DNA of 64,000 nucleotides from Clavelina lepadiformis (Eukaryota > Chordata > Ascidiacea > Aplousobranchia > Clavelinidae): positions 13,401,820-13,465,819 of the forward strand of contig NC_135248.1 in the NCBI RefSeq assembly GCF_947623445.1. Direction: 5' to 3'. The notes beneath the pieces were generated by a model. That model was not told the origin of the DNA. It ran no database searches and worked only from the letters and a program-made list of their open reading frames with translations. The position numbers and the translations under genes were made by a program. The number at the start of each line of letters is the position of its first letter. The stretch's first letter is position 1. This document shows positions 16,854-63,631 of the stretch, piece by piece.

Positions 16854-16896
16854 TATCCTACGATAGGCTAAAAGGAAAAGTAGCCTAACCAAAGAA

Positions 16897-19422
16897 ATGG
16901 AGTTAAGTAAGTTCGATCTGACTACATTCGATTGTGAGAGTCCTGGTGCTAGTTCTCGCTGGACTAAGTGGAAAAGGTCGTTTGAAGTGTACGCGGAAGC
17001 CAGAAATGTTACCAGTCAAAAGCAGAAACGCAGTCTTTTATTACACTGTGGAGGAGCTGCATTACAAGGTATTTTCTTTACCTTGGAAGGTGATGACCTC
17101 TCAAAATATGATGAAGCTGTGGGTGCTTTAACCAACTATTTTCAGCCGTTGACGAACGTACCATATGAAAGACATCTATTTAGAGGTACAGTGCAAGGAA
17201 AGTCGGAAACAGTTGAGCAGTTCATTACCAGGCTGAAACAAAGAGCGGAAACCTGCGACTTTGCCGATGAAGATGACCAAATCAGGGACCAAGTTGTAGA
17301 CAAATGCTTATCGAACCGGCTACGGCAAAAGTTTCTAGAAAAGGGAAAACGTCTTTCTCTGAAGGTTCTCAGGGAAATAGCTATGGCCTATGAGACAGCC
17401 GAAACGCAAGTATCGACATTTTCATCGCCAGCAGTAGAAGTAGACAGAATTAAAGACTTTGGAAGGAGTGCTGGGAAGCCGTACAGGAGCTCAACTTACG
17501 GGGAAGAATCGTATTCTAGTAGGCCTAGAAGACCAGGAAAATGCTACAGGTGTGGACGGGAAGGTCACATAGGAAAAGACCCAAAATGTCCAGCCAAACA
17601 AAGGGAGTGTCGCAGATGTGGGAACATGGGTCACTTTGCTGTTTGCTGCAAAATGGACAGGAATCCAAGACGAAAAAACAGTGCCAGCTTACGTCAAATC
17701 CAAGACGCAGATGCTGAAGGACCAGAATATCTGTTCAAGTTAAAAATGAATGACCGTGGTAGTAAAGCCAAAATTCAAGTTGGCGGGGTGAAAATGGAAC
17801 TGATCATTGACTCAGGAGCATCTTGCAATGTGATAAACCATACGTTGTGGGAACATTTGAAATCGAGATCGATAAAATGTAAGTGTTATTTTACTGATAG
17901 GAAAATTTACGCTTATGGTAGCGATAAACCATTGAAGGTGGTTGGTGCTTTCCAAGCTGGTGTGAACATTCCGGGGAAAACTCTACCAGCTGTAGAATTC
18001 TTGGTGATTGAAGGAGATGGAGAAGCTCTTCTCGGAAAGCAGACTGCAACAGATCTTGGCATTCTCTCAATTAAAGCAGATATTAACTGTATCTCGACTG
18101 ACGAGTTATTACGGAAGTATGATTCCTGCTTTGAAGGGATTGGAAAGCTGAGAGATTTCCAGTTAAAGATACCCATTGACAAAAATGTCACTCCTGTGTG
18201 TCAACCTCTACGTCGTGTTCCTTACCACATTCGTGACCGGTTAACCAAGAAGCTGAAGGAACTGGAATCCCTTGATATCATTGAAAAGGTTAGTGGATAT
18301 ACACCTTGGGTGTCACCAGTAATTGTTGTGCCAAAAGCAGATGAGGACATTCGCCTTTGTTTGGATATGCGGCAAGCTAATAAAGCTGTAAAACGGAAAA
18401 GACATCCAATACCAACCATTGATGAAGTCCTACAAGACATGAACCAATCTCAAATGTTTAGTAAGCTCGACATCAAATGGGCTTATCATCAAATTGAATT
18501 AGAACCTCAGTCTAGGGAAATAACAACATTTGTCACTCATGAAGGCTTATTTCGCTATAAAAGGCTCATGTTTGGGGTGAGCTGTGCACCTGAAATGTAT
18601 CAACGTGTGATGCAACAGACTCTGCAAGGATGCAAAGGACTGCAGAATATCTTGGATGACATCATTGTGTACGGAAGATGTAAAGAGGAGCATGATGAAA
18701 GACTGAAGGTCGTCCTGGCGCGGTTACTAGAAAGTGGACTTACCCTGAATCGAAAGAAGTGCCAGTTCAACATGTCAGAACTTACCTTTATGGGACATGT
18801 GCTGTCAACCCGAGGAATTGGACCGGAGAGCGTCAAGGTAAAAGCTGTGGCTGATGCGAGACCACCAAAGAATGCAAGCGAGGTGAGGAGTTTCCTGGGT
18901 CTCGTAAATTACAACGGACGATTTATACGAAATTTAGCCACTATAGCAGAACCAATACGCAGGCTAACTCGAAAAGGAGCTAGATTTGTATGGGGAAATG
19001 AACAAGACAAATCATTTAATGAGCTGAAAAATGAACTGTGTAATGCAAAGGTCTTGGCGTATTTTGATAAAAACTGTGAAACACAAGTAATGGCAGATGC
19101 CAGCCCTTTTGGACTCGGTGGAGTGCTTATACAAGAGCAACGGGGTCAAAAGCGTATCATAAGTTATGCAAGTCGAACACTATCTCAAATAGAGCGGAAA
19201 TATTCGCAGACGGAGAAGGAAGCTTTGGCTTTGGTATGGGCATGTGAAAGGTTCCATGCGTACCTATACGGTTCGGATTTTCAATTGGTAACGGACCATA
19301 AACCGCTTGAATTTTTATTTTCTCCACGTTCTAAACCCAGTGCAAGAATAGAACGATGGGTTCTCAGACTGCAATTTTATATGCCGAATTTAAACAAAAG
19401 GGGAAAGACTATGCAGATTTAA
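16897..19422 (+). CDS. Retrotransposon Gag-Pol polyprotein, lacking integrase
   Basis: Single frame of 841 codons. Gag is about residues 1-200. Two Cys/His knuckles follow at about 216-255 (CYRCGREGH, then CRRCGNMGHFAVCC); the first has unusual spacing before its last Cys. The aspartic protease has DSGAS at about 305. Reverse transcriptase spans about 430-640 with the LDDIIVYG catalytic Asp pair near 587. RNase H starts near 720 (MADASPFGLGG) with TDHKPLEFLF. The frame ends abruptly after RWVLRLQFY, where a deletion junction joins it to an out-of-frame integrase remnant. The arrangement resembles the Mag-like/K02A2.6-type Ty3/gypsy lineage. The coding part up to the junction is otherwise undamaged, so the insertion is young. 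Confidence 0.93.
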   Translation: MELSKFDLTTFDCESPGASSRWTKWKRSFEVYAEARNVTSQKQKRSLLLHCGGAALQGIFFTLEGDDLSKYDEAVGALTNYFQPLTNVPYERHLFRGTVQGKSETVEQFITRLKQRAETCDFADEDDQIRDQVVDKCLSNRLRQKFLEKGKRLSLKVLREIAMAYETAETQVSTFSSPAVEVDRIKDFGRSAGKPYRSSTYGEESYSSRPRRPGKCYRCGREGHIGKDPKCPAKQRECRRCGNMGHFAVCCKMDRNPRRKNSASLRQIQDADAEGPEYLFKLKMNDRGSKAKIQVGGVKMELIIDSGASCNVINHTLWEHLKSRSIKCKCYFTDRKIYAYGSDKPLKVVGAFQAGVNIPGKTLPAVEFLVIEGDGEALLGKQTATDLGILSIKADINCISTDELLRKYDSCFEGIGKLRDFQLKIPIDKNVTPVCQPLRRVPYHIRDRLTKKLKELESLDIIEKVSGYTPWVSPVIVVPKADEDIRLCLDMRQANKAVKRKRHPIPTIDEVLQDMNQSQMFSKLDIKWAYHQIELEPQSREITTFVTHEGLFRYKRLMFGVSCAPEMYQRVMQQTLQGCKGLQNILDDIIVYGRCKEEHDERLKVVLARLLESGLTLNRKKCQFNMSELTFMGHVLSTRGIGPESVKVKAVADARPPKNASEVRSFLGLVNYNGRFIRNLATIAEPIRRLTRKGARFVWGNEQDKSFNELKNELCNAKVLAYFDKNCETQVMADASPFGLGGVLIQEQRGQKRIISYASRTLSQIERKYSQTEKEALALVWACERFHAYLYGSDFQLVTDHKPLEFLFSPRSKPSARIERWVLRLQFYMPNLNKRGKTMQI

Positions 19423-20389: not shown

Positions 20390-21020
20390 AGAGAGCAGAA
20401 AAAGAAAAGAGTGATCGTGTGCATATTCATGGCGAGTCGAGGCAAAATAGCATATATAACAAGATCGATGGTCCGATCGATCGATTTCGTCCTTTTTTAA
20501 AAACTTAGGTGTATGCATATTAGTATGGAATATGCATGTTGTACAGCAGGATGCTTGATGTAGGACATTGGTGGTATGAGCAGCATATTTTATTTTACTT
20601 ATGTGGATGCTATGTTTTAGACATGTAAATTACTGTTACCAACAGCACCAAATGCTGTTAGCAAACATGCACGAAATCCTCCATGTTGCATGGGAAGAGG
20701 CAACCTGTCATGGTAGGTATCACCATAAACTGATCTCAGCTTGCTATTGCAACGCTGACCTCGTCATACAGTTTTTTTCTTTCTGCTCTAAAACAAAACA
20801 CTATTTCTTGTAATTCTATTTTTTTTATCAGTTTTGATCATGCTTCTATACATCAACCTAGGACATGACAAAGCTTACTGCTTTGGGCAAAATAATGTCT
20901 ATTGTGCGAGAGCAGAAAAAACAGAAAGAGGGAAGAAACAGAAAAGAGTAACCGTGTGCAGATTCATGGTGAGGTCACGGCAAAATGGCAAATATAGCAA
21001 GATCAGTAACATTCCGTCTT
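20390..21020 (+). repeat. Local duplicate in and around gene 2 exon 1 (unit A)
   Basis: The block at about 20393-20470 (AAAAGAGTGATCGTGTGCA, ATTCATGGCGAG, GGCAAAATAGC) recurs at about 20933-21010 (AAAAGAGTAACCGTGTGCA, ATTCATGGTGAG, GGCAAAATGGC). The second copy lies in a frame reading KKQKRVTVCRFMVRSRQNGK that is also open in unit B. No splice sites clearly support it as an exon. Confidence 0.55.
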
Positions 21021-23828
21021 TTTTAAACCTTTGGTATGCGACTTATAGTTATTAGCTTCTGGCTTAAATTTTAAGGAAATTGAAATTTTTGTTTGTGTTG
21101 ATATATGCCACACTTGCGGTATATGTTAGTATACATTAGAGCAGTTTTACTTGAGTAAAGTTGACTCAAATACCATTTGTGTGGTACTCGAAAGTGCCCG
21201 GGTACTAATTTTCCAGTACTCAGGTGTACTTGATTGTTTTTAAAATACTTTAATTGGTTCGACACTTGTTTGTTAATCTTTATATTTGATTTGTTATTGC
21301 ATATTATCGTATATTGTGTACATCTTTCTTAAAGAGGTTTGTCAATCTATAAGCTGAAGCTACCGTCCGTTATGACCGGTCATCTATGCAACCTTTTTCG
21401 TGGCTACCTTTCGATCATTGTATTCACCTACTGTGTTTAAGATTGAAGGAATTAAAAGTCATCAATTCCGTCATCAGATCGTTAAAAATCATTTTTATAT
21501 TACAATAAAGTATTCAGTTGCCTATGCCACTTGCGGTCTGGTACTTGTACTCAAATATATTTAAACTAAGTACTTGTACTTGAGTACCAAAATTAGCATG
21601 TGCAATTAGCTCTGGTGTAAATATGTTTGTTTTGTGATTTTCAGAAGATTTCCAGCATAGAGAAATCATTCCTATATTGGAGAAGTATCACTACGGATAT
21701 CATGGAGGTAATACGTTTTTTAGCATGTTTTGTATAAATATATGTGAATTTTTTGGCTGAGTAGCTTATTTCAATGTGTCGATTTTGTTTTTGCAATACA
21801 TAGTTCCATAACTGACATATCATTTGCCAAGTGATAGATTGTGTTTTGTACAGTGGAGATAATTGTTGTTCTATGTGTGAATGAGCCAATGTGTAAAAAT
21901 GTCACACATATTTAGTTGTGTGACTTAAGCCTAATTGATAAAACTATACACAGTATTTGGTTTGATTTCTATGTTATGTGATGAACTATGTCATTTTAAA
22001 TATGCTGGTAATGAGTTTGCAGCTTAAGTCTATAGCTATATGGTATAAGAATCTTTTTTACTGTTTTAAACATGGTCATGATTTTTCACTGCTTGAGGTC
22101 TGGTTGCCGAGCTTGTGTTTATCCATTTTCATGTTACAGTCATGTTTTATATTTGCTGGCCTTGGTCCAATTTCGAACTGTTCACCTCAACCAATCAACA
22201 ACTTGCATAATTTGGTCTTTCATTTTAATTTTTTCTGTAAAAAATTTTGACTTTCTTACGATTTTGCGAGCCATGATTAACAGGGCACTTTATCAAGCTC
22301 CTTATTTTTTTGCCCTAGGCCTAGGCTCTGTGCTATTAGAACTGTAGCGTTGCTGCGATCATAATCGTGTTCACTTGTAACAACAGATAGGCCTGTGGTG
22401 GTAATTTCAATCTATGGTTAACTTTGTGTGTTGGGCGCCACAGTAAGACATAAAATGTGTTTTTGACATTTTCTTGTAACCAACTTGTAGCCTAGCCTAC
22501 ACCAGGTTCAAGTCACAGATAGGCCTACAGTTATTTAAATGTAAAACAAGTGAAAACGAAAGTTATGTTTGTTTAGGACGTGAGCCACTGGAATTGCTAC
22601 GTCTTTATGAACAAATTCATCAAATCAATGACGAGCAGCTCACCACGAATGCAGCGGAACTCTTCCCAGAAGTGCTGAGTTTATCCCCTATCAAGTTGAT
22701 AAAATCACAAATTGACTCGCTCCTGTTTATTCTCACTAAAGTTGAGAAACGCATCAAGTGGCTTCTTCTGCCCGACTGCTTTTCTAAACCAGAAGATGTC
22801 GGCCGATTATTTGAGGCAATTCAAGCAATGCCAGGGAAGGTTTGTTTATTTATTTTACTTTCTGCTTTTTCGTTCGTCTTCAACTTTGTTTACGAACTCG
22901 ATGTGTCGTAACAATGCGCCTTGGTTTTGCATGTGACGTCATAATTGTTTTTCCCGCTTTTAAGCAAACATGGTTTTTGAGATTCTGTGCGTTGTTGTTG
23001 GTCGGAATATTTTGTTTCAATTTATTTCAACGGGGCGTAATTTCCCCGCTCAAGTTTTATCGTTTAAATCGCTGATAGATCTGGAATGCGCAGTAAACCT
23101 GGCCGCTTAAAATTCGTTCGTTTTATTGAGAAAAATGGCAAAATTTGATCGGTTCAGTTTAGGCTAAAATCAGCAGCATCTGACCAAGATTTGGCCAGAA
23201 GCAAATTTCAAACTTTTACAAAAATAAAAATATTTTTGCGACTTTAATATCAAGTTTTATTTCTGCAACGAATATTCAATCGTGGTTTAAGTTGGTCGCT
23301 TAAAATTCCTTCTATTTTCCTCAAAATCCAAAAATTTGTTTTGGTCCAGTAGGCTACTGTAGGCCTAAGCTACCACCATGTTAGTTAGTTATTAATTAGT
23401 TAACACTAACCAGTTAACTTGTATGCGTTAAATATTAGGATATTAGTGTTTGTTATAACATCATGTTGTTGTTTAATTTTACAAACATTTTAACACTAGA
23501 TCGGAGGGCTTGATATCAGTGAAAACATAATCCCGAAGATACCTTCAAAATCCTTCTTCAACAAAATCGAGGATTGGCTGAATATGTGTGATTGCTTCCC
23601 TGATGATGACGCAACAGATGGGGTGCGTGATGCGAACCAATCAGAGATCGCTGAAATTCAACGAGTCCTTGACCAATTGGATGACTCGGTATTATTTATG
23701 TCTTGTTATGTTTGTGTGAAGTTGAACATTGCAGAGGAATTTAATCTCAAACTTTTAATTTATAGAAGTTGAAAGTTGTTGTTGGTCTGTGCGATGGTGA
23801 TTGGGTCGAACTCTGCTCACGAAAGTAA
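20667..23828 (+). CDS. Gene 2, unit A: short LRR protein, five exons
   Basis: Predicted exons: 20667-20712, 21645-21707, 22577-22839, 23500-23688, 23766-23828, all phase-consistent, giving 207 aa from MHEILHV. The first exon can also be read from an acceptor at 20646 in phase 0, which would let gene 1 exon 8 splice into it. Exons 3-5 encode about five ribonuclease-inhibitor-like LRRs: LSLSPIKL, IKWLLLPDC, IGGLDISENII, WLNMCDC and LKVVVGLC. RLFEAIQAMPGK is a typical helix-to-strand connection. The role is probably ligand or protein recognition. The stop TAA at 23826 corresponds to AAA in unit B, so this copy lacks the last six residues. No signal peptide or membrane span is seen. Confidence 0.65.
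21138..21614. mobile_element. Putative MITE with TACTTGAGTA inverted motifs (unit A)
   Basis: AGAGCAGTTTTACTTGAGTA at the left and TACTTGAGTACC...TTAGCTCTGG at the right are roughly inverted. It lies in gene 2 intron 1 and is conserved in B at about 47217-47707. The ends are uncertain. Confidence 0.35.
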
Positions 23829-33212: not shown

Positions 33213-33356
33213 CATTTCTACTTGGCAAGACATAACACAGCGTCATGGCAGTTTAGTTACCTTGTGTTCGTCTTGTGTAGACTTTCAAAGAAAAGCTTTC
33301 TGTTGTAAAACAGGTGCTGTATTCATAGGTGGTTCAGTAAAGAAATTTAACTAAAG

Positions 33357-34034
33357 ATATCCAAACTAACTCTTGGTTATTGGGATATAGGGGCTTTGGG
33401 TGAACCCATCCGAATGATTTTAGAATATTGTGGAGTTGATTACGAAGACAAAAGATACCAAATGTTTGGGGAACCACCTAATGTAGACACAAGTCAATGG
33501 TTTGACGTCAAATTTAAGCTCGGATTGGAATTTCCAAACCTGCCATATCTCATCGATGGTGATATCAAAATGACGCAACAGTGGGCGATTATGAAGTATC
33601 TTGCCAGGAAATTTGGTAAACTTCTTCCGAAGAGTGAAGAGGAGACGAGAAGATGCGACATGGCACAAGAAGAGGAAAGGGATTTATGGATTGCAATTGT
33701 GCGCATGCTCTTCAGTCCTGATATCGTCGAAGCAAAAACGATATTTCTGGAGGAAACTGTTCCCAAGCAACTGGACGCTTTTGAGAAGTTTCTCTCAGAC
33801 AAAGATTGGATGGCCGGTGCCACTCTCACCTACGTTGATTTCGAGATCTGTAAACGCCTCGACGTGTTGACTGAGATGAAGTTAGATTGCCTGGATAAAT
33901 ATCCGAACATGAAGAAGTACAAGGAAAGGTTCTTTGCACTCGACAAGATAGCAGCATATCGTTGCTCTAACAGATTCAAGGAATATCCGATATTTGCTCA
34001 AGTTGCCAAATGGGGATTCAAAAAGGAAATTTAA
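33357..34034 (+). pseudogene. Mu-class GST (copy 4), start codon lost
   Basis: The frame is open for 225 codons and nearly identical to the GST at 57814, including QQWAI and TYVDF. At the start position, ATG of the related copies is ATA (33357-33359), and no in-frame ATG lies between it and the ATG in RMILEY. Starting there would remove the GYW segment with the catalytic Tyr. The otherwise clean frame means the loss is recent. Use of a non-AUG start or an upstream spliced exon cannot be excluded. The 5' flank is shared with unit C to about 33213. Confidence 0.85.
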
Positions 34035-37935: not shown

Positions 37936-40900
37936 ATGAACCAAGAAGAAGAACCAGGAGATTTTCAACTTACCCATAATCCTTCGCATGGGAATGTTGA
38001 CCAATCGCAACCAATAGATGCAGCACAACAAGAACAACATCGCCATGGTAATTAGCTACTGGGTAATGTGTTGTATTGTTGCAAGTTTGTTTGCATTGTA
38101 TAAATGTTCTGTACTCAACGGCGTCAATTTTAGTAAATCACAAAGTGAAAAATTTTAATTTGCAGATACGTTTTTTTCTTGGTGCTTTTAAGTTTTAATA
38201 CTTTTAAATCGCCGCTAACCTGTTTTTGTGGGTTTTTATATTTGGTGCAAAAATTTCATTTTTCTCTATTTTTGATTGCCTCATAAAACACTTATTAAAA
38301 CAAATTTTAATTGAGGTTCATATTCTGATGAAATTTTGCACGCTTTTTTTTCAAGCTTCCCTCTCTTTCATTATACAAAGATATATGAGTTATTGCACGT
38401 AATAGCATGTTATATTTTGATATCACACATGAAATAATCTGCTTACCGTATATACTCGAGTATAGGTCGACCACTATATTTTTGCTGAAAATTAGAGATA
38501 TTTTTTTCTCTCGTGTATAAGTCGATTTTGTCGTTCACCTAAGTATTGGCATCGACATACTGTAAGAAAATTTCAAGGATAGGTGAGAGTTCACCACTAA
38601 GTGAACTTTTGAGGCCTAGCTTGCCGGTACTTGTGTAGCGACTGCTAACTGTAAACTTCAGCAGCACGCGTGTGAATTGTTGTATAGTTATTTAAACGAA
38701 ATGGCCAGTAAGCGCAATAAATTCACGGTTCAAATTCATGAATGCATCAATCACCGTCCTGTCGGCTGGACTTGGAGGTTTTACTTTGGTTTGTTCCTTG
38801 CATAGGTCAACCCCTGCTTTTTGAGGTGAAAATCAGCTGCGAAAATCTCGACCCATACCCCCAGTATATACGGTAGCTCGCTAAGTTTCCAACAACAGGC
38901 AATTTCATAAACAACCACCTCCAAACACTGTTACAGAAAGCAGCTGATTAAATTATTTCTTTTAAAATATTAATCAATTAATTAAATAACTAACTTTAAA
39001 AATAATTTTCTTAAAAACATTAAGTTGAAGGGAGATTGCAAGAGATGGATCTTCAAGATGAAGGAAGTCAACCTGTGGCAAGAACTGAGGATGTAGAAAG
39101 TCAACAACTTGCTCTTGCTGGGGAAGAAGTTGTTCAGATTGTAAGAGAACTTACATCATCTGGTGGTGAGTCAAGATGTAACGTCACGGTGTTTTTTTCC
39201 ATCAATTAAACCGATAGATGTACTTTGATTCTTACGCACACAATAAAAATGCAAAAATAACAAATGTTGACAGAAAAAAATGGAAATTTTAGTTGGCACT
39301 GGGATATAACAAGACAAGTCACTCACTCACTCGTGGGTATTGCATAAGTGTGAACCCAGAGACCTTACTAGGCCACTTGAACATGAAAATATATGTTATC
39401 GGACGTTCTGTTGCATGTATATATCTTAAGGTCTGAATTTGTCTTTATTCATTGCAGTAGCTGCAGGACCTATCAACATACATTTTGCCCCACAATTCGT
39501 ACAGCAAACTCAGTTTCAAGACAACAGGCGCAACATGAACTTTGAGAATGTTGGCGGTGATGTTCATAATCCTGGTGGAGAAGTCTATGGAAATGTTGGC
39601 CAACCAGGAGGTGAGCTACATGTTATTTAAGAGTAATTTGGAATTGGTTTCTATAAAATGTTGTTTTTGTTGGAATGTTGACGGTGGCGTTCACAGTCCT
39701 GGTGGAAAAATCCACATAAAGATTTGCCAATCTGATGGTACTGTACTTGTTATTTTAGAGTAATATGACATAGCTGGGAGTTTTACAGAACTTGTTTAGC
39801 CATTAGGTATTTGTCACTAGCTGCTAGTTAATTGTTAGCTCTTAATTTTCAAGTTATATTGTTGAATGGAAACAAAAATACTTTTTATGGTCAAAGTTTC
39901 AGTGTTTATTTTACGATCAAAATTACACTGTACACTATCGTAATTACTATCTTTTTTAATTGTTTATTTGCATTAACAACTGATTCTCTTTTGCGTTATA
40001 TCTTTCTGGTGATTATGTGGAAACTGCTGGCATGATTATGTTATTCTAATATTTGTGTTTGTCTATTCACTCTTAGAACCAACAATACAGAGAACTCCTG
40101 AAAATATCGCAGAACAACCAGGTTCTAGTCAAGCTCCTGTGCAAGGTGTGTGTGTGTGTGGTAGTCAAACATAGTGATAATGGCATTACTAAATCTTTGG
40201 TTATAAAAGTAACAAATTATAGAAGTCAGTCATTTACTTGGCTTCATGTATGTAGCCATTAATTTTATGAAAGTGCACAATCCAAATTAATATCATATTC
40301 TTTCACTGTATAATTGCTATAGCAAGTAACACCCATTAGTCAGAGCTGGGCACAAGCGTGCTCAAGATTGAGAGCTTTTTTGTAGGAGCAACCTCGAGAG
40401 CAAAGCTGTTTTCAAATTTGGAACGGAACCACAGGCGTACTTTTTTTATGAATTATCCGCTCCTCGCTCTTTTTTGTACAAATAATGCTGTGAATGCACA
40501 AAATGGTTGGATTAAAGTAAATTTTAAGTTTTTCTTTCCTTTTACACATGATTCTATGCAGTGAATAAAAATGACTACTTTGAGACTAAAGATGACAGAG
40601 AGACTCACACAGATGAACCAAGTTATCATCGATGTGTAATAATTTGATTCACTTTGCCATTATTTTTATAACTTAACCATTGTATGCTTTAAAAGTGAAT
40701 AATATTAAACTAATGGATGTCGACACCTATAATTCTTGAAAGTTCTTAATACTATGCTCATCTATTAATCCTTTGTAGCATGTGTGACTAAAACAAAACT
40801 TATCAATATCAAATGTTATAAAATTTACATTTACAACAAACCATGATAAGCAATTAATAGGCTACAGTTAGACACATGTTTTACAATGCAAATTTGCATC

Positions 40901-42278
40901 ATATGAATGCGACTGGTTTTCAAAAACAGGCCGGACTGAGAATATTTTTAATTGCTAAAAAAGAGTGGAAGAGTGAGCGGAAATACGAGTGACGATAGTT
41001 TTTTATAGAAGAGCAAAACCACAAGCAATGCTCTTCTTTTCATCGACGAGCAAAAACGTTGTTGCAACGTAGTCATATTGACTAAATGTGTCTAAAACAT
41101 TATCGGAAGGTTGCAATTTATGATTAAATAAGACTTAAAGAATGATTGTCATACCAACGTCTTGGTGTTATTATTGCCCTCATGATTAATAGCCAATAAC
41201 ATATCACAACAATAGTGTCTGAGTAACATATTATATTCAACATGTTATGCCTTGTAAATGGCACATGACATGACCGAACTTCAGTGAATGACACACGCTA
41301 AATAGCATGTCAGAATAGGAATAAGGCAAACATCAAAAAGCCTTAATATCATCAAACTTACTTAAATTTATTCTCAAGGAGTTATTACGTAATTACATTC
41401 GCCGTTTTCTCTGAATTGTTTCTAGAATATTTCGTGGTAATTGCATGATTTAAACTAAGCTAATGGTTGGCTAATATTCAAGTTGCAATCAGCCAATATT
41501 CAATACTTACATATTCATTCAATATTCAATCAGTTATCAGCCCAATCCATTGAAATGTAATCTAGCAATATCTAAATCTAACAATAATGATCAGCAATGC
41601 ACAGCAAATTACAGTTAACCACTTGGTGTTTGTAAAATGAGATTAAGATTGCGTGGTACACCCGGTGAATCAGTGCTCACCACAGCGTGAGCGACGCTCT
41701 TTTTAAAACAGCTGTTACCCAGCTCTACATTTGCCCTTTAGTGTTGTATATATCTGGTGATTATGTTGTGCTTTTATACTAATATTTGTGTTTGTCTATT
41801 CATTCTTAGAGCCAACTATACAGGGAACTCCTCACACTATCGCAGAACAACCAGGTCCTATTATTGCTCCTGTGCAAGGTGTGTGTGTGGTAGTCAAACA
41901 TAATTAATACTTGAATAAAGTAGCTATTTAATTATGATGTATGAAGTACTCAAATGATTATTTTACAAGTTTGTTTGAGTTCTTTCAAATACAGTACTTC
42001 CTCGATTATCCGGTCAAGTTGGGTCAATATTTTCAAAAATCTGACCGGATAAGCAAAAAAAACGGATAATTGAATTTGTATTTTTACCGAGCACGCACGC
42101 AAATCGCCGCCATGGGCCTGACACTCGCTATGGGACGAAGCCTCGATCAGAAGGACTCGGGCGATCCGCGACGCGCGCAAGACGAATTCTATACGCCACA
42201 ATTCCGGAGCGCTCCAAAAGCGACCGGATTCGGCGATGGGCTCATCCCGCTTCACTCGCCATTACTGAGGGAATCCTT

Positions 42279-42325
<47 letters not shown>

Positions 42326-42965
42326 AGTCTCGTCCGACCTCAGGCCGAAATGTAAGAGACGTCACACGTGCCGAGGATCGACGACGTTCGCGATCGATCG
42401 CGGCGACTTGGCGAAACGAGGACACCTCTTCGAGGTCGATCCGCCGCCGCCGCGCTCTCCGATCGCGTGCCGGACCCTTGCTGACTTCGACGGGACGGCG
42501 GAGACACAGGTCTCTGTCCGACTCCGCATTCGCCCGGGCGACGGGCGCGCCGGGATTGCTTTTCAGACGACCCTGAGGCGGGCGTGGTTCCGGGATTAAC
42601 CCGAGGCCGTAATTCGCGTTCAGAACGTCGATGCTCAATGTGTCCTGTAATTCACACTAATTCATGCAGCTAGCTGCGTCCTTCATCGACTCGCGAGCCG
42701 AGTGATCCACCGCCAAGAGCCATCATCGTTTATCGTTTCAGCTTCTACGAAGCAGTCACAGGTTTGAATGTGAGCGCCGAGCGGACGATCTGACGACCGT
42801 CACTTGAAACCGCGGGGGTACTCGACGCCCGTGAAAGACTTGTGCCTTGTCGAGCGCCTCAACGGGCGCGTCTTGACCTCGACAAGCGCGAGAGGCGGCC
42901 GGTTTTCCGGCGACGCCGCCGCAGCTCGAGCGGGAGCCTCCGTTCGTTTCGATAATGATCCTTCT

Positions 42966-43010
<45 letters not shown>

Positions 43011-45844
43011 AATGATCAAGTTAGATCGTCTTTTCGGACACCGGTTCGGCCGTTGCCAGCCGCTCCGGGTCCAATCGGAGGACCTCACTAAACCATTCAA
43101 TCGGTAGTAGCTACGGCGGCGGTTCAACGTCAATTGAAAAATAAAAACCAGAGTAATCTCACGCATATGATAGTTGCAAGTGCAATCATGCGAAGTAAAA
43201 CGACCTCCCAAAGTCATTGATCACTCGGCCGGATAATCGAATGCCGGTTAAACGAGGTACGGATAATCGAGGAAGTACTGTAGTTTATGAAGGTGGTCAA
43301 CGACATTTTTTAGACAAGTTTGTTAGTTTGTGAGGTCCAAAAGTTTGACAATTACTGTTCTAGAACCATTCATCAAAAAACTGTTTAACTCTTTGGTATA
43401 ATAGCTCAACAGTTTAAGCTACAGAATGCAAAATATGGCAACAAATTTTTATATGCAGCTTTCTTTTCACATAAATTTATATAAACAGATTTATTTTCTT
43501 TTATTTTTAATACTCGGCACATATACAAAGGTGCAGCCCAACATGAGTCTCCTCGCCAAAGACATCACCAAGATCGGGAAACTGGTGGCTGGCACGAAAC
43601 TATCAGACAGGCTGAAATAAAAGTTTTTGGTTTTACTATCAAAGGCATTCCAGCCATTACTTTAGCCGGTGGAGCTACTACAGTTGCATTGATAGCCAGT
43701 TTGCGTGATCCAGTTGCTCGTGAAAAGTTGGCCAGTGCATTTGTTCCATTTGCTGCCGGGGCGGCTGGTGGTGCTGCTGCCAGCATTTTTGTAACCAAAT
43801 ATGGCCAGGGCAGTCTATTGGTAGAGGTAGTAACAAAAGGATCTGAAGCAGAAGCCAACTTACTCCAGGCATATTCGTCTGGAAAGATTAAGCAAGGTTT
43901 GATAGAGAACCACTGGCAAAAGGCTGGAGATGATCTCACAGTTGAACTGACCTCCTACAAAGTTATCCGTGCAAGTGAAGAGGAATTTGAGGAGATCAGA
44001 AAAGAAGTTGAATCTCTGAAAGATTGTCACTTTCAGCAAAATGAAACTGAGGTATGACAAGTTGATTCATGTTTATTTTTACCTAGTAACAAATTTATTA
44101 TAAATAAGCAAAGTCATTCAAGCGTAGCATTTGTATCGGCAGAAGCTTTAACCATTCAGATTAATTTTACGTTGATCGTTGATATTATTTTGTTTTATAA
44201 ATGATATTTTTGTGCTGTATTATATCCAGAGTTGGGCAAAAGCGCGCTTCTTTTGTTAAGAGCAATCTTGATAGTGACACTCTTTTTTTAAATTAGAAGC
44301 AGTATATAGTAAAATAAAAAAACGATATATGTGTTGGCACTCTAAAGGTTAACTTCATTTTAGATTCTTCTATACTTACAATTCTTTGATTTTTTTACAC
44401 TCTACATGCTTTTAATTGCAATTTTATAAAATATTTTATGTCAGAAATTGTTGCTAAGCAGCACATGAAAGAAATTTTTGTTGTAAGAACTTTATGAGTA
44501 AGTAGCAAGTTGTTTTTACTTCAAGTAGTTTTTATTTTCATAATGACATTTCAATCATGAAATTTTTAAAATAAAGCATCATGTTCTAATGAATACAAGT
44601 TTTCCTGCTCTAGATCATCTTAAGTTCATCTTCAACCCTAAGAGATGATTCAAAAGTTATCACTCATTTGTATGCTTCAGAAACGAAGAAATTAGTCGTG
44701 GAAAAAGGTGAGAAAGTTTGTGGTGGTTTTGTGTTCCATTTTACAAATAAGAAAAACTTTAAGAACACTGCTAATTTTGCTTTGATCTTAACTAGGTTTA
44801 TATTTATAAAATTAGTTCATGTTGCAGCTCAAAAATAAGGCAATCATAACTGTTTGCTTGTTTTAGAACATGGCAAGTTAGTGATTTCGTTAATTAACCG
44901 AAAAACCACTGAGTTAAAGACCGAAGAAACGGTAAGTAAATGTCATATTTCGTATTATGCTGCATCCGAATGCGGCATCTTGTTTAATGTTCAAGAAACG
45001 ATAAGTAAATTCATGTGGTAAGAATTTTTTGAAATCTTAAATGTGGACGTAATAAACATACCCAGTTAAACAAATAATGCAGCAGAAGCTTGTTACTTTA
45101 AAGTTAAAGATAAATCCTTGCAGCTTATTTTGCCATTTCCTGGAAAAAGCCGAGGTATTTTGAGTAACCAAAAATTTTGAGTTAGGGTACCGCATTATAA
45201 CAATATTTACTTAGAAGTTCAATGATTTAATTTGGCTGACCAAAGGGATTTTTAGTTGTTTGTACTGAAATCCTCAGACTCTGAAAAGTATAGTATTATT
45301 CCATTCACACTTTCAAAAATGGTTTCATTTAAACAGCAATTATTTCTACAATTACAACCAAGTTTTGTTCTTAGTTTACAACTAAATCAATAGCAAAAGA
45401 TAGCCTAGTTATTATAATAAATAGTGCAGTGAAAGCTTTATTTTAAAGCTGACCTGACCAGTAAATTTAAATGAATTTTGAATGAATTAATATTGAATTT
45501 TGAGCTGGTTTTCCTAGTTTGACACTTATCTAAGGAATTTTGTGCATACGATTGAAAGTTTTAAGTTAAGGAAATTGATTTAACAGGTATACTCCATTAT
45601 ATGTAGAAGATTCCAGGTAGCATGTTATACTGAGATGGTAAAGGTTATGATTAATATTTATGTTATATTTTTGCTTACAAGTTTGCTGGTTCATTTTAGG
45701 TATTATATTTTACAGAAATTATCATCCCCCAAAGAAGTCGACATCCCATTTTCATCAATTTCAAAAATGGATTCATCTAAACAAAAACAATTTCAAAAAT
45801 TACCACGAACACCCAAACAATTTGGTTCAGGTGCTATAGTTTAG
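37936..45844 (+). CDS. Gene 1, unit B: TRADD-N-like protein, nine exons
   Basis: Exons: 37936-38047, 39043-39165, 39458-39610, 40077-40145, 41810-41878, 43537-44051, 44614-44707, 44867-44931, 45716-45844. It has the same exon lengths and phases as unit A and also encodes 442 aa. Exons 3, 4, 5 and 7 encode identical protein to A. Changes are few and mainly in exon 2 and the His/Gln-rich start of exon 6. The hydrophobic Gly/Ala segments and the GSLLVEVV TRADD-N-like region are preserved. Intron 5 carries the 1.3-kb rDNA transposon without disturbing splice sites. Two full copies with identical structure support this as a real gene. Confidence 0.75.
38445..38873. mobile_element. TA-inserted MITE (unit B), intron 1
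   Basis: Ends CCGTATATACTCGAGTATAG and CCAGTATATACGG with flanking TA. Orthologous to 10417-10940 but about 95 bp shorter inside. The empty site is at 62931 in C. Confidence 0.8.
40341..41727. mobile_element. hAT-like element between exons 4 and 5 (unit B)
   Basis: Orthologue of 12404-13767 with the same CAGAGCTGGGCA left end and a right end carrying point changes (ACCCAGCTCTA). Confidence 0.65.
42090..42347 (-). rRNA. 28S rRNA 5' fragment inside the transposon
   Basis: The minus strand starts with GGTCGGACGAGACTACCCGC, followed by TGAATTTAAGCATATTACTA and the D1 region. The rest of 28S is absent, so this cannot yield a ribosomal RNA. The inner border is approximate. Confidence 0.9.
42348..42565 (-). 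other. ITS2 spacer of the captured rDNA
   Basis: GC-rich sequence between 28S and 5.8S, placed by its neighbours. Confidence 0.8.
42566..42721 (-). rRNA. 5.8S rRNA, complete but mutated
   Basis: The minus strand contains GGTGGATCACTCGGCTCG, CGATGAAGGACGCAGC and ACAGGACACATTGAGCATCG. The near-universal GATGAAGAACGCAGC has one change, and GCGAGAATTA is GCATGAATTA, so this is probably a decaying copy. Confidence 0.9.
42722..42952 (-). other. ITS1 spacer of the captured rDNA
   Basis: GC-rich spacer between 18S and 5.8S. Confidence 0.8.
42953..43125 (-). rRNA. 18S rRNA 3' fragment inside the transposon
   Basis: The minus strand ends with GTAACAAGGTTTCCGTAGGT and GAACCTGCAGAAGGATCATT, the 18S 3' terminus. 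Upstream, TACTACCGATTGAATGGTTT is clear. The match fades at about 43110-43125, the junction with transposon sequence. Confidence 0.92.
44227..44293. mobile_element. Truncated CAGAGCTGGGCA-type element (unit B)
   Basis: Orthologue of 14975-15041 in intron 6. Confidence 0.5.
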
Positions 45845-46757: not shown

Positions 46758-49700
46758 ATGCACGAAATCCTCCATGTTGCATGGGGACAGGCAACCTCTC
46801 ATGGTAGGTCTCACCATAAACTGATCTCAGCTTGCTATTGCAACGCTGACCTCGTCATACAGGTTTTTTTCTTTCTGCTCTAAAACAAAACACTATTTCT
46901 TGTAATTCTATTTTTTGTTCATGCTTCTATACATCAACCTTGGACATGACAAAGCTTACTGCTCCAGGCAAAATAATGTCCATTGTGCGAAATCAGAAAA
47001 GACAGAAAGAGGGAAGAAACAGAAAAGAGTAACTGTCTGCATATTCATGGTGAGGTCACGGCAAAATGGCAAATATAGCAAGATCAGTAACATTCCGTCT
47101 TTTTTAGCCTTTGTTGTGCATCTAATAGTTATTAGTTTCTGGCCTAAATTTTAAGGAAATTGAAAGTATTATTTGTTTTGATATATGCAACACTTGCGGT
47201 ATATGTTAGTATAAACTAGAGCAGTTTTACTTGAGTAAAGTTGACTCAAATACCATTTGTGTGGTACTTAAAAGTGACCGGGTACTAATTTTCCATTACT
47301 CAGGTGTACTTGATTGCTTTTAAAATACTTGAATTGGTTCGATACTTGTTTGTCAATCTTTATATTTGATTTGTTATTGCATATTATCATACATTGCATA
47401 CATTTTTCTTAAATAGGTTTGTCAATCTATAAGCTTAAGCTACTGTCCGTTATGACCGGTCATCCATGCAACCTTATTTCGTTGCTACCTTTCGATCATT
47501 ACATTCACCTACTGTGTTTAAGATTGAAGGAATTAAAAATCATCAATTCCGTCATCAGATCGTTAAAAATCATTTTTATATTACAATAAAGTACTCAGTT
47601 GCCTATGCTGAGTACTTGCCACTTGGTCTGGTACTTCTCCTCAAATATTTTTAAACTAAGTACTTGTACTTGAGAACCAAAATTATCACGTGCAAATAGC
47701 TCTGGTGTAAATATGTTTGTTTTGTGATTTTCAGAAGATTTCCAGCACAGAGAAATCATTCGCAGATTGGAGAAGTATCAGTACGGATCTCATGGAGGTA
47801 ATACGTTTTTTGGCATGTTTTATATAAATATATGTGAATTTTTTGTAGCTTATTTCAATATGTTGATATTGTTTTTGCAATACATAGTTCCATAACTGAC
47901 ATATCATTTGCCAAGTGATAGATTCTGTTTTGTACAGCTGAGATAATTGTTGTTCTATGTGTGAATGAACCCATGTGTAACAATGTCACACATATTTAGT
48001 TGTGTTACTTAAACTTAATTGATAAAACTATACACAGTACTTGGTTTGATTTCTGTGTTATGCAATGAACTATGTCATTTTAAATATGCTGGTAATGAGT
48101 TTGCAGCTTAAATTTTTTGCTACATGGTATTAGAATTTTTTTTTACTGATTTAGACATGGTCTTGATTTTTCACTTCTTGGGGTGTGGTTGCCGAGCTTG
48201 TCTTTATGCATTTTCATGTTACAGTTGTGTTTTATATTTGCTGGTCTTGCTAGAATTTCGAACTGTTCACCTCAACCAATCAACAACACACATAATTTAG
48301 TCTTTCATTTTAATTTTTTCTGTAAAAAATTTTGACTTTCTTACAATTTTGCGAGCGATGGTTAACAGGGCACTTTATCAAGCTCCTTATTTTTTTGCCC
48401 TAGGCCTAGGCTCTGTGCTATTAGAACTGTAGCGTTGCTGCGATCAAGTTCTTGTTCACAAGTTATTGTTCACAAGTTAGTGTTCAGTTAGTGTTAGTGT
48501 AGCTGCAAATATGCTTGTAAAGGTAATTTAAATCTACGTTTAACTTTGAGTTTTTGGCGCCACAGTAAGTCATAAAATATGTTTTTTACATTTGCTTGTA
48601 ACCAACTTGTAGCCTAGCCTACACCAGGTTCAAGTCACAGATAGGCCTACAGTTATTTAAATGTAAAACAAGTGAAAACGAAAGTTATGTTTGTTTAGAA
48701 CATGAGGCACTGGAATTGCTGCGTGTTTATGAACAAATTCGTCTAATCAATGACGAGCAACTCACCACGAATGCAGCGGAACTCTTCCCAGAAAGGCTGT
48801 GGTTAGTCGATATCAAGTTGACAGAATCACAAATTGACTCGTTCCTGTTTATTCTCACTAAAGTTGAGAAACGCATCGAGTGGCTTTATCTGATCAACTG
48901 CTTTTCTAAACCAGAAGATGTCGGCCGATTATTTGAGGCAATTCAAGCAATGCCAGGAAAGGTTTGTTTATTTATTTTACTTTCTGCTTTTTCGTTCGTC
49001 TTCAACTTTGTTTACGAACTCGATGTGTCGTAACAATGCGCCTCTGTTTTTCATGTGACGTCATAATAGTTTTTCCCGCTTTTAAGCAAACATGGTTTGT
49101 TGAGATTCTGTGCGTTGTTGTTGGTCGGAATATTTTGTTTTAATTTGTTTCAACGGGGCGTAATTTCACCGCGCAAGTTTTACTGTTTAAATCGCTGATA
49201 GATCTGGAATGCGCAGTAAACCTGGCCGCTTAAAATTCGTTCGTTTTATTGAGAAAAATGGCAAAATTTGATCGGTTCAGTTTAGGCTAAAATCATCAGC
49301 ATCTGACCAAGGTTTGGCCAGAAGCAAATTTCAAATTTTTACAAAAGTAAAAATATTTTTGCGACTTTAATATCAAGTTTTATTTCTGCAACAAATACTC
49401 AATTGTGGTTTAAGTTGGTCGCTTAAAATTCCTTCTGCTTTTCTCAAAATCCAGAAATTTGTGTTTGCTCCAGTAGGCTACTGTAGGCCTAAGCTACCAC
49501 CGTGCTAGTTAGTTATTAATTAGTTAACACTAACCAGTTAACTTGTATGAGTTAAATAATAGGATATTAGTCTTTGTTATAACACCATGTTGTAGTTTAA
49601 TTTTACAAACATTTTAACTCTAGATCAGATGGCTTGATATCAGTTACAACATAATCCCGAAGATTCCTTCAAAATCCTTCTTCAACAAAATCGAGGTTAG

Positions 49701-49970
49701 GCTGTATATGCGGAATTGCTTCCCTGATGATGACGCAACACATGGGAAGCGGGATGCGAACCAATCAGAAATCGATGAAATTCAACGAGTCCTTGACCAA
49801 TTGAATGACTCGGTATTATTTATGTCTTGTTATGTTTGTGTGAAGTTGAACATTGCAGAGGAATTTAATCTCAAACTTTTAATTTACAGGAGTTGGAGGT
49901 TGATCTTGGTCGGTGCGATGGTAAATGGGTCATACTCATTTCGCGAAAGAAAAGTGACATCTACGTGTGA
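46758..49970 (+). CDS. Gene 2, unit B: short LRR protein, five exons
   Basis: Exons: 46758-46803, 47735-47797, 48699-48961, 49624-49812, 49890-49970, giving 213 aa. The LRR strands read RLWLVDIKL, IEWLYLINC, IRWLDISYNII, VRLYMRNC and LEVDLGRC; the third (LDISYNIIPKIPS) is a textbook LRR. The C-terminus is six residues longer than in A because AAA replaces the TAA of A. Compared with A, substitutions cluster at the x positions of the LxLxx(N/C) strands, while helices such as EDVGRLFEAIQAMPGK are unchanged. The first exon can also start at an acceptor at 46737 in phase 0 after gene 1 exon 8. Confidence 0.68.
47217..47707. mobile_element. Putative MITE with TACTTGAG motifs (unit B)
   Basis: Orthologue of 21138-21614 in gene 2 intron 1. 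Ends uncertain. Confidence 0.35.
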
Positions 49971-57429: not shown

Positions 57430-57813
57430 CTGTAGAAAAAGAAGAAGTACTGCAGTAATCTGAAAATATTTTTAAAGTAAGTTAGTAGTAAACGTCCCAT
57501 AAGCTCTACAGTGGAAACAAACAAACACACAGCTCCAGTGAACGACACGACGCTAACATTATAATCGTGAAATAATTAGAAACATGATTTCATAGAAATT
57601 ACTGCGGCGGCTTAAGAGCGCCAAAATATGAAATACATAATGGCCGCTACACGCCAACCAAAACTTTAGCTTTTCTACTTGGCAAGACATAGCACAGCGT
57701 CATGGCAGTTTAGTTACCTTGTGTTCGTCTTGTGTAGACCTTCAAAGAAAAGCTTTCTGTTGTAAAACAGGTGCTGTATTCATAGGTGGTTCAGTAAAAA
57801 AATTTAACAAAAG

Positions 57814-58491
57814 ATGTCCCAAATAACTCTTGGATATTGGGATATAAGAGCTTTGGGTGAACCCATCCGAATGATTTTAGAATATTGTGGAGCTGATTAC
57901 GAAGAGAAAAGATACCAAATGTTTGGGGATCCACCTAATGTAGACACAAGTCAATGGTTTGACGTCAAATTTAAGCTCGGATTGGAATTTCCAAACCTGC
58001 CATATCTCATCGATGGTGATATCAAAATGACGCAACAGTGGGCGATTATGAAGTATCTCGCCAGGAAATTTGGTAAACTTCTTCCGAAGAGTGAAGAGGA
58101 GACGAGAAGATGCGACATGGCACAAGAAGAGGAAAGGGATTTATGGATTGCAATTGTGCGCATGCTCTTCAGTCCTGATATCGTCGAAGCAAAAACGATA
58201 TTTCTGGAGGAAACTGTTCCCAAGCAACTGGAAGCTTTTGAGAAGTTTCTCTCCGACAAAGATTGGATGGCCGGTGCCACTCTCACCTACGTTGATTTCG
58301 AGATCTGTGAACGCCTCGATATGTTGACTGAGATGAAGTCGGATTGCCTGGATAAATATCCGAATGTGAAGAAGTACAAGGAAAGATTCTTTGCACTCGA
58401 CAAGATAGCAGCATATCGTCGCTCTGAGAGGTTCAAGGAATACCCGATATTTGCTCAAGTTGCCAAATGGGGATTCAAAAAGGAAATTTAA
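57814..58491 (+). CDS. Mu-class glutathione S-transferase (copy 5), intact, intronless
   Basis: A 225-aa GST: GYWDIRALGEPIRM with the catalytic Tyr, LPYLIDGDIKMTQQW, and the C-terminal domain with DWMAGATLTYVDF and KEYPIFAQVAKWGFKK. The start ATG is present, unlike its near-identical partner at 33357. It is about as divergent from copies 1 and 2 as expected for a separate subgroup (MFGDPPNVDTSQW instead of LRGELPNIDRSDW). The flanks are shared with unit B on both sides, so it belongs to the duplicated unit rather than being a fresh retrocopy. It probably conjugates glutathione to electrophiles in the cytosol. Confidence 0.94.
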   Translation: MSQITLGYWDIRALGEPIRMILEYCGADYEEKRYQMFGDPPNVDTSQWFDVKFKLGLEFPNLPYLIDGDIKMTQQWAIMKYLARKFGKLLPKSEEETRRCDMAQEEERDLWIAIVRMLFSPDIVEAKTIFLEETVPKQLEAFEKFLSDKDWMAGATLTYVDFEICERLDMLTEMKSDCLDKYPNVKKYKERFFALDKIAAYRRSERFKEYPIFAQVAKWGFKKEI

Positions 58492-62445: not shown

Positions 62446-63631
62446 ATGGACCAAGAAGAAGAACCAGAAAATTTTCAACTTACCCATAATTTTTCTCATG
62501 AGAATGTTGACCAATCGCAACCCGTAGATGCAGCACAAGAAGAACAACATCGCCATGGTAATTAGCTGCTGGGTAATGTGTTGTATTGTTGCAAGTTTGT
62601 TTGCATTGTATAAATGTTCTGTACTCAAAGACATGAAAGTGAAAAAAATAAATTTGCAGATACGTTTGTTTTCTTGGTGCTTTTAAGTTTTAATACTTTT
62701 AAATTGCTGCTAATTTGGTTTTGTGTGTTTTAATGTTTGTTGCAAAAATTTCATTTTTTTTCTCTATTTTTGATTGCCTTACAAAACAGATTTTAATTGT
62801 AGTTCTTATACAACCGAAATTTGGCAAGCTTTTTATTCAAACCTCCCTTTGTTTTATTATACAAATGATATGTGAATTATTGCACGTAATTGCTTGTTAT
62901 ATTTTGGCATCACACATAAAATAATCTGCTTAGCTCCCAAGTTGTCAACAACAAGCAATTACATAAACAACTTCCTCCAAACACTGTTACAGAAAGCAGC
63001 TGATTAAATTATTAATTGTATTAAAAGTTATTTAATTAAATTAAACAGCTAACTTAAAATTAATTTTCTTAAAAAAACATGAAGTTGAAGAGAGATTGCA
63101 AGAGATGGATCTTCAAGATGAGGGAAGTCAACCTGTGGCAAGAACTGAGGATGTAGAAAGTCAACAACTTGCTCATGTTGGTCAGCTTCTAAGAGAAGTT
63201 AAATCATCTGGTGGTGAGTGAAGATGTAACGTCACAGTGTTCTTTTCCATCAGTTAAACCGATAGATGCATTTTGATTCTTACACATATGATCAAAATCC
63301 CCAACTAACAAATGTTGACCGAAAAAATTGGCACTAGCATATGGCAAGATAAGTCACTCATGGGTACAGCATAAGTGTGAGCCTAGTTACCTTAGCAGAC
63401 TACTTAAACAACAGTATATGTGTAATCAAACATACTGTCGCTTATTTTTAAGTTAAAATTTGTCTTTATTCCTTGCAGTAGCTGCAGGACCTATCAACAT
63501 ACATTTTGTTCCACGATACATACGGCAAACTCAGTTTCAAGACAGCAGGCGTAACATGATCTTTGAAAGTGGTTGTGGTAATATTAACGCCCCTGGTGGA
63601 GAAATCTATGGAAATGTTGGCCAACCAGGAG
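62446..63631 (+). CDS. Gene 1, unit C: first three exons (partial)
   Basis: Exons 62446-62557, 63103-63213 and 63479-63631, in the same phases as A and B. Exon 2 is 12 nt shorter (frame kept). Exon 3 reads INIHFVPRYIRQTQFQ, then NINAPGGEIYGNVGQPG, clearly diverged from the A/B version, which is identical between A and B. The TRADD-N-like exon and the rest lie beyond the window. Intron 1 lacks the TA-inserted MITE. Confidence 0.7.
62931..62932. other. Empty TA site of the intron 1 MITE
   Basis: ATAATCTGCTTAGCTC is uninterrupted here; A and B carry the CCGTATATA element between the two TA copies. Confidence 0.85.

Follow-up and report, generated by a model that had tools for sequence, protein, structure and literature searches.

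Does the leucine-rich repeat (LRR) end of a duplicated ascidian gene vary because selection keeps altering the surface that it exposes, and what might that surface recognise? The question arises in a window of 64,000 nucleotides, by which we mean the whole stretch of DNA analysed, at 13,401,820-13,465,819 of contig C9 of Clavelina lepadiformis, an ascidian of the order Aplousobranchia. The genome searched comprises 209 Mb in 95 contigs; the published C. lepadiformis assembly is described as 210.1 Mb, mostly in 9 chromosomal pseudomolecules (PMC10884593). An initial annotation of the window had compared two copies of an LRR gene, in units A (20667-23828) and B (46758-49970), and had proposed that they diversify at strand positions forming a ligand-binding face. 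The coordinates and GT-AG boundaries of the five blocks in each unit were as that annotation gave them, and its proposal of diversifying selection on an exposed LRR face was supported by codon tests, null simulations and the placement of the selected sites. We number exons according to the 13-exon gene to which these blocks belong, in which the exons 2, 3, 4 and 5 of the annotation are exons 10, 11, 12 and 13; the larger intron lies between exons 11 and 12, and a 77-nt intron between exons 12 and 13.

Diversifying selection on the LRR strand face

The family is large. Searched against its own genome, the LRR protein gave at least 153 matches (150 of 288 candidates scored), and exon 11 was found at 34 places or more at an identity of at least 55%, 33 of them in a 1.8-Mb cluster (C9, 12.6-14.4 Mb) and a single place on C8, in addition to fragments. 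We analysed 28 of the 34 places, setting aside five places and, within L045, a second LRR set that has diverged. Exons 11-13 lie adjacent in the germline in 26 of the 28 copies, most of which keep their reading frame; L029 and L031 carry frameshifts, L050 has altered exons, and the last two exons are absent from the stretch examined in L025 and L042. Exon lengths are near constant across copies, with the exception of the database models P0010, P0011 and P0012, which have two LRR sets. The alignments used 22 rows for exon 11 (dropping L025, L027, L028, L029, L040 and L050), 23 of 26 for exon 12 (dropping L028, L029 and L031) and 19 of 26 for exon 13 (dropping L024, L027, L028, L029, L037, L044 and L050), with a joint test on 17 copies and a divergence scan on 15; rows were dropped for frameshifts, indels, a rearranged or shifted start, membership of a near-duplicate pair, or a cut at the end of the locus. 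On C9, about 69.6 kb separates the near-identical copies L027 and L028 (12.957 and 12.887 Mb). Matches to glutathione S-transferase (GST) are paired likewise at about 69.2 kb, and the pairing may stem from a recent duplication of a large segment or from the assembly itself.

Variation in these copies is concentrated at few positions. The framework is nearly invariant, and 24 of the 26 x positions of the strand motif xxLxLxx carry between 4 and 9 residues, the remaining two carrying 2 (22, 23 and 19 clean rows for the three exons); these positions were set by the motif after the variability had been seen, and the 26-site set differs slightly from the 27-site set used for pN/pS below. Between two copies, the median number of differing residues is 18 of 26 at x positions and only 14 of 139 elsewhere, and an entropy of 1.5 bits or more occurs at 19 of the 26 x positions and at 6 of the 144 others. 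Tryptophan accounts for 7.3% of the residues at x positions and for 0.3% of those elsewhere. In the 31 most variable codons, which were picked by hand, mean entropy is 1.10, 0.93 and 0.31 bits at codon positions 1, 2 and 3, compared with 0.11, 0.10 and 0.14 bits in the other 139. Each of 22 copies carries a unique set of five variable blocks, each block occurring in 20-22 forms, and conversion from a single distant paralogue, which could have explained the exon differences, was rejected on this ground.

The control that matters most is the introns inside the same module. In the divergence scan, exons 11, 12 and 13 stand at 0.082, 0.090 and 0.146, compared with 0.045 for the exon 11-12 intron and 0.010 for the exon 12-13 intron, placing the LRR exons two- to threefold above the larger intron between them. 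The ratio of nonsynonymous to synonymous differences per site (pN/pS) was 1.72 across the LRR codons and about 5.0 at x positions (17 copies); with the 27-site set, pN is 0.409 and pS 0.081 at x positions, and 0.043 and 0.057 elsewhere. Comparison of models M1a and M2a gave likelihood-ratio statistics of 497.9 on a tree of noncoding sequence and 423.7 on a tree of all sequence, placing some 20% of codons at an omega of 14-16, and exons 11, 12 and 13 tested on their own trees gave 233.7, 138.5 and 69.5. Fifteen null simulations, ten of them with a separate tree for each codon, gave values between 0 and 20.1. The models were a custom implementation of M0, M1a and M2a rather than PAML, using fixed FastTree trees with one scale parameter, and the site posteriors are empirical-Bayes values at the fitted parameters. 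Among controls, exon 6 of the same gene has a pN/pS of 0.46 (five copies), and four GST copies in the window one of 0.24. The signal is unusually clear, given how many copies there are, how close to neutral the intron within the module is and how low the control ratios in the same gene are.

The annotation had rested its case on units A and B, and our recount of nonsynonymous and synonymous changed codons gave the same values for exon 10 (4 and 1), exon 12 (12 and 3) and exon 13 (8 and 1), and 16 and 3, not 17 and 3, for exon 11. Fourteen changed codons carry two or more changes, and the intron adjoining exon 11 is identical between the units over its first 82 bases, both much as described. 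Such raw counts flatter the case, since about three-quarters of sites are nonsynonymous; across the LRR exons the pair has a pN of 0.116 and a pS of 0.094, and we rejected it as proof of selection in its own right, the ratio of 1.23 not being decisive. A further block, 46758-46803, which differs by 3 nonsynonymous and 0 synonymous codons and had been called exon 1, is in none of the database models mapped to the region and is probably not an exon.

The selected sites fall where a binding face would be expected. They comprise 23 of the 26 xxLxLxx positions and 9 of 144 others; mapped on the predicted structure, 18 of 32 lie in predicted strands (which make up 36 of 176 residues) and 3-4 of 32 in predicted helices, a placement that tells against scattered or buried sites. 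The statement that helical and core residues do not change was therefore nearly right, the nine codons outside the x positions, and the few in helices, being the departure from it. The predicted fold is an LRR of the NLR and ribonuclease-inhibitor class, with alternating strand-helix repeats and a conserved LxL core. AlphaFold2 models were good for the LRR part only; those of the kinase and exon-6 parts discussed below were poor, probably as a result of shallow alignments (17 and 19 sequences). A Foldseek search with the model of P0013 returned nothing at E <=0.001, the top row being the LRR of NLRP1 at E 0.017.

The 77-nt intron (49813-49889 in unit B, 23689-23765 in unit A) presents a separate observation. 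Its divergence, about 0.010-0.012, is below that of the exons, the larger intron (0.045) and the flanks; it is open in the frame of exon 12 in all 21 copies of that length examined; its first 48 nt are about 80-85% alike in a copy associated with an NLR on contig C4; and models P0004, P0006, P0022 and P0023 read through it. A C-terminus encoded by the retained intron, or a splicing element, is possible.

Seven database proteins derive from a second Clavelina contig (6,623,624 bases). Two are close to copies on C9, P0017 to L034 (differences at 1 of 26 x positions and 3 of 140 other sites) and P0001 to L040 (4 and 5 differences, respectively). For P0010, P0013 and P0019 we found no close match among the copies compared, with 13-18 of 26 x positions differing from the nearest, a result that is provisional, as five of the 34 places lay outside the comparison and may hold counterparts. 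Against L035, P0010 is changed at 18 of its 26 x positions and at only 3 of 140 other residues.

A thirteen-exon gene

A separate "gene 1" and a five-exon LRR "gene 2" had been annotated; database models and spliced translation instead indicate one 13-exon gene, of which gene 1 is exon 6 and the five-exon gene the 3' end. The two-gene arrangement was ruled out by models P0013 and P0018, in which exon 6 is joined to the LRR exons through three further exons (7-9). The same joins led us to drop the idea of exon 6 as an alternative last exon, although models P0008 and P0009 nonetheless terminate inside it. Spliced across GT-AG introns, the 13 exons of each unit read without an internal stop, yielding open products of 639 amino acids in A and 645 in B, and the N-terminal exons of database models (P0001-P0003, P0013 and P0018, by tblastn) fit both. 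The isoform names of the database records (X1, X2, X3) suggest, by naming custom, that transcripts support them.

In unit B, where all exons are on the plus strand, exon 1 (37936-38047), with the start codon and an acidic N-terminus, was placed by tblastn with P0001 and P0003 and by the open spliced translation, and exons 2 (39025-39165), 3 (39458-39610) and 4 (40077-40145) by tblastn of database models and spliced translation. Exon 5 (41810-41878), exon 6 (43531-44051), and exons 7 (44614-44707), 8 (44867-44931) and 9 (45716-45830) follow P0013 and P0018 and the spliced translation, with hydropathy as further evidence for exon 6. Exons 4 and 5 are EPTIQ linker cassettes of phase 1-1. Splice boundaries and spliced translation define exon 10 (47735-47797), which precedes the LRRs; splice boundaries, spliced translation, the copy alignment and the codon test support exon 11 (48699-48961, LRR1 and LRR2), exon 12 (49624-49812, LRR3 and LRR4) and exon 13 (49890-49970, a terminal strand pair and the stop), all three hypervariable at strand positions.

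Unit A, also on the plus strand, has the same order: exons 1 (9906-10017), 2 (11096-11236), 3 (11521-11673) and 4 (12140-12208) by tblastn of database models; exons 5 (13850-13918), 6 (14279-14799, the hydrophobic domain), 7 (15362-15455), 8 (15615-15679) and 9 (16396-16510) by the P0013 and P0018 models; exon 10 (21645-21707) by splice boundaries, all of these with spliced translation; and exons 11 (22577-22839, LRR1-2), 12 (23500-23688, LRR3-4) and 13 (23766-23828, terminal strands, with a stop 18 nt before that of B) by splice boundaries, copy alignment and spliced translation. A third unit starts at 62446 on the same strand; its exons 1-3 (62446-63630; LOC143470294) match residues 1-131 of P0003 at 100%, and its LRR end lies beyond the window edge, in locus L009.

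Exon 3 encodes a glycine-rich motif, NVGGDVHNPGGEVYGNV (NVGG/PGGE), without a single codon difference between A and B, which might resemble an amyloid-like signalling motif. Exon 6 encodes two hydrophobic Gly/Ala-rich segments with Kyte-Doolittle peaks of 1.73 and 1.69. The notion that it is a TRADD-N domain, prompted in part by PMC8195603, found no support, with no Pfam match, a PDB sequence row only at E 5 and a model pLDDT of about 23-46. By hydropathy we found no signal peptide in unit B, whose N-terminus, with the start taken from gene models, is hydrophilic (maximum Kyte-Doolittle -0.91).

The units differ in their insertions. Unit B contains a ribosomal DNA fragment on the minus strand (41992-43280), with the 3' end of the small-subunit gene at 42961-43123 and a full-length 5.8S match at 42568-42721, that is absent from unit A; a Gypsy-like reading frame of 851 amino acids, named by eye, lies between exons 9 and 10 of unit A (16867-19422) and not in unit B. 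GST genes, which we take to be of class Mu, stand amid the receptor units (1968-2654, 4311-5012, 7103-7555, 33351-34034 and 57808-58491), several as uninterrupted frames; the genome holds 49 GST matches including fragments, mostly on C9 at 12.7-13.5 Mb.

One LRR module behind several N-termini

We identified the LRR module behind at least three N-terminal types on C9. The copies are about 87-95% identical from some 110-150 bp before exon 11 to past the stop, and upstream similarity is lost between groups. Type I is that of the window, with the glycine-rich motif and the two-segment hydrophobic domain. Type II has an IRE1-like kinase and an RNase-like part (P0011, P0012, P0015, P0017, P0020, P0025 and P0027; P0022 lacks the front). 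P0015, the type II protein that was compared, matches human IRE1 over residues 38-426 at E 1.4e-34 (phmmer, both domains) and the Pfam kinase family Pkinase at E 1.3e-41; a stretch RN..EH aligns with RNKKHH of IRE1, and the residue opposite the tyrosine of RTYKGG is not tyrosine. By this match type II would combine a kinase with a KEN RNase domain of putative activity; the Pfam KEN family itself gave no match in P0015 or P0011 and one locus in the genome, on C4 at 5.5 Mb. Among 127 scored of 267 candidates, the nearest kinase and RNase-part exons are on C9 at 13.8-14.4 Mb; C4 near 23.9 Mb, C2 near 2.8 Mb and C6 hold remoter relatives, at about 41-67% identity. Type III has a long N-terminus (P0019, P0021, P0023 and P0026; P0010 is similar and ends in two LRR sets), without Pfam matches in P0021 and P0023, the two scanned.

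A homologous two-exon module was found on C4, at 0.29-3.5 Mb, in at least 61 close copies (150 of 233 candidates scored). A NACHT domain lies within 20 kb upstream on the same strand in 49 of these 61 (median 8.65 kb), compared with 18.5 under random placement and at most 32 in 2000 trials; from position, NACHT and LRR are inferred to form one protein there. This stretch, with about 60 NACHT-LRR-like loci, is a large NLR cluster in an ascidian. Of the 97 NACHT places scored in the genome (137 candidates), none is on C9, and Pfam found no NACHT in P0010, P0011, P0013, P0014, P0015, P0018, P0021, P0023 or P0024, so that we rejected an NLR with NACHT as the identity of the window gene. Since the homologous C4 module follows NACHT and no NACHT was scored on C9, the C9 genes appear to bear an LRR end like that of NLRs while lacking the NLR switch.

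Whether the module has moved between N-termini, possibly by ectopic recombination, is less clear. The exon 11-12 intron differs by 0.074 between types and 0.065 within them, a similarity consistent with exchange. Module trees require 6 type changes, compared with 9.8 when types are shuffled (4 of 1000 shuffles as low) and 2 if each type were one clade, and the tree of the 3' flank alone requires 8 against 9.8 (122 of 1000 as low); the types thus group above chance, though not cleanly, and are not randomly mixed. A near/far incompatibility test for recombination was non-significant (P 0.24 for noncoding sequence, 0.054 for the whole module). Exchange is therefore suggested rather than proven, given the low support of the trees and the non-random distribution of types. 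Between A and B, pS is 0.033 in exons 1-9 and 0.094 in exons 10-13 (P about 0.013, one count rounded), and the two halves of the gene may accordingly differ in history. Tentatively, then, and on odds that we put somewhat below even, these genes could form a modular germline repertoire built by swapping a single hypervariable LRR cassette, of three exons and about 1.75 kb, among membrane-domain, IRE1-like kinase-RNase and long third N-termini and, by older kinship, a NACHT chassis. If so, specificities evolved on one chassis would be re-usable on another.

Recognition, its alternatives and known systems

We consider it probable, at roughly two chances in three, that the C9 family encodes, in the germline, a repertoire of immune receptors, probably intracellular, with a hypervariable LRR face, the immune part of this reading being drawn from the pattern of variation, the fold and the relatives. 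Each protein is predicted to end in a five-unit LRR arc of the NLR and ribonuclease-inhibitor type, whose almost constant framework displays a variable face. Strong diversifying selection replaces the outward strand residues, as in receptors for ligands that change quickly. The most likely partner of the face is a variable ligand, probably a protein of a pathogen or virus present within the cell, and binding would be relayed to the N-terminal part, whether the glycine-rich motif and hydrophobic domain, the IRE1-like kinase-RNase or the long third type. The window-type protein is likely cytosolic or membrane-attached, as it combines the lack of a signal peptide by hydropathy with two hydrophobic segments. 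IRE1 and RNase L act by pairing of their kinase-RNase parts, and by analogy ligand-driven pairing in type II would cut RNA.

Among alternatives, an allorecognition or self-incompatibility repertoire, in which the face reads polymorphic self ligands of a colonial animal rather than pathogens, is unlikely but survives best. Aplousobranch species are described as colonial, with one family partly solitary, in a review (PMC7344649) that lists Clavelinidae as unstudied for fusion or allorecognition, and the fungal genes het-d and het-e offer a precedent for diversified repeats so used (PMC1805685). The second-contig proteins P0010, P0013 and P0019, provisionally without close match, would also suit it. 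However, pathogen sensing is suited equally well or better by proteins that look cytosolic, by the RNase-like part of one sister type and by the kinship with NLRs, and some 34 copies with no one polymorphic locus dominant among them would, as far as we are aware, be unusual for such a system.

Marginally less probable again is diversifying selection whose cause lies outside immunity, for instance in conflict with mobile elements, in the interaction of gametes or in coevolution with a partner in the manner of RNase and RNase inhibitor. The kinase and RNase-like part of one sister type and an LRR fold that fits ribonuclease inhibitor as well as NLRs favour it, whereas no tie to gametes or mobile elements turned up, although no dedicated search was made, and many near-identical chassis with unlike faces better suit a recognition repertoire.

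Targeted mutation of the codons, by a retroelement-type, deaminase or cassette-conversion process that makes diversity in place of selection, is improbable. The packing of changes in few codons with nearly fixed third positions, and the similarity of the neighbouring introns, might be expected of it, but the codon-position pattern is accounted for by selection to change the amino acid, the variable codons, when pooled, show every one of the four bases at their first two positions, without an A-only pattern, and the 20-22 blocks per LRR in 22 copies reveal no small donor set. Relaxed constraint or decay of duplicates, to which the broken copies noted above (L025, L029, L031, L042 and L050) might point, can be set aside almost entirely, since relaxation cannot exceed the neutral rate and nonsynonymous divergence at x positions is about ninefold that of the larger intron, while the framework is conserved and both window copies are open across 13 exons.

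The hypervariable LRR face is a feature well known in plants, of which we know few animal cases as clean; the C9 genes present it in a chordate, of the sister group of vertebrates. Coupling of such a face to an IRE1- or RNase L-like effector would newly join recognition to RNA decay, and the use of one recognition module across effector types offers a model, open to test, of how receptor repertoires can arise with no somatic rearrangement. We found no published description of this family among top-ranked titles and abstract openings, with most subscription journals outside the scope of that search.

Type II resembles IRE1 and RNase L in its kinase and RNase-like part and differs in its sensor, a hypervariable LRR rather than a luminal domain or the ankyrin domain of RNase L. 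Lamprey variable lymphocyte receptors (VLRs) use the strand face of an LRR as their variable surface, and the unit B LRR protein weakly matches VLR-A (E 0.42, one of two weak PDB sequence matches). VLRs are secreted or glycosylphosphatidylinositol-anchored and somatically assembled, whereas most C9 copies are complete at the LRR end in the germline and unit B lacks a signal peptide by hydropathy.

Animal NLRs offer a further comparison. The parts of a 2024 survey that concern ascidians describe NLRC proteins with NACHT-LRRs or NACHT only, and no CARD (PMC11508797). The C9 genes share the LRR fold class of these proteins, and in the one C4 copy read, LRR exons homologous to exons 11 and 12 of unit B are 37% and 58% identical, but no NACHT was found in the C9 genes.

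Plant highly variable NLRs (hvNLRs), as described in PMC8226289, are similar in their variable, positively selected strand face, conserved LxxLxLxx core and exposed aromatic residues such as tryptophan, the level of entropy used there being 1.5 bits or more. The C9 family differs in being animal, in the window type without a NACHT found, in having five repeats and in that its variation was measured among paralogues, not alleles. Fungal NWD proteins carry NACHT. In the family that includes het-d and het-e, a few surface positions of the repeats diversify, with exchange among members (PMC1805685), and fungal NLRs bear assorted N-terminal effectors (PMC9815663), both as on C9, where exchange is suggested. 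The repeats of the NWD family are WD repeats rather than LRRs and vary highly in number (PMC1805685), whereas C9 exons keep a near-constant length.

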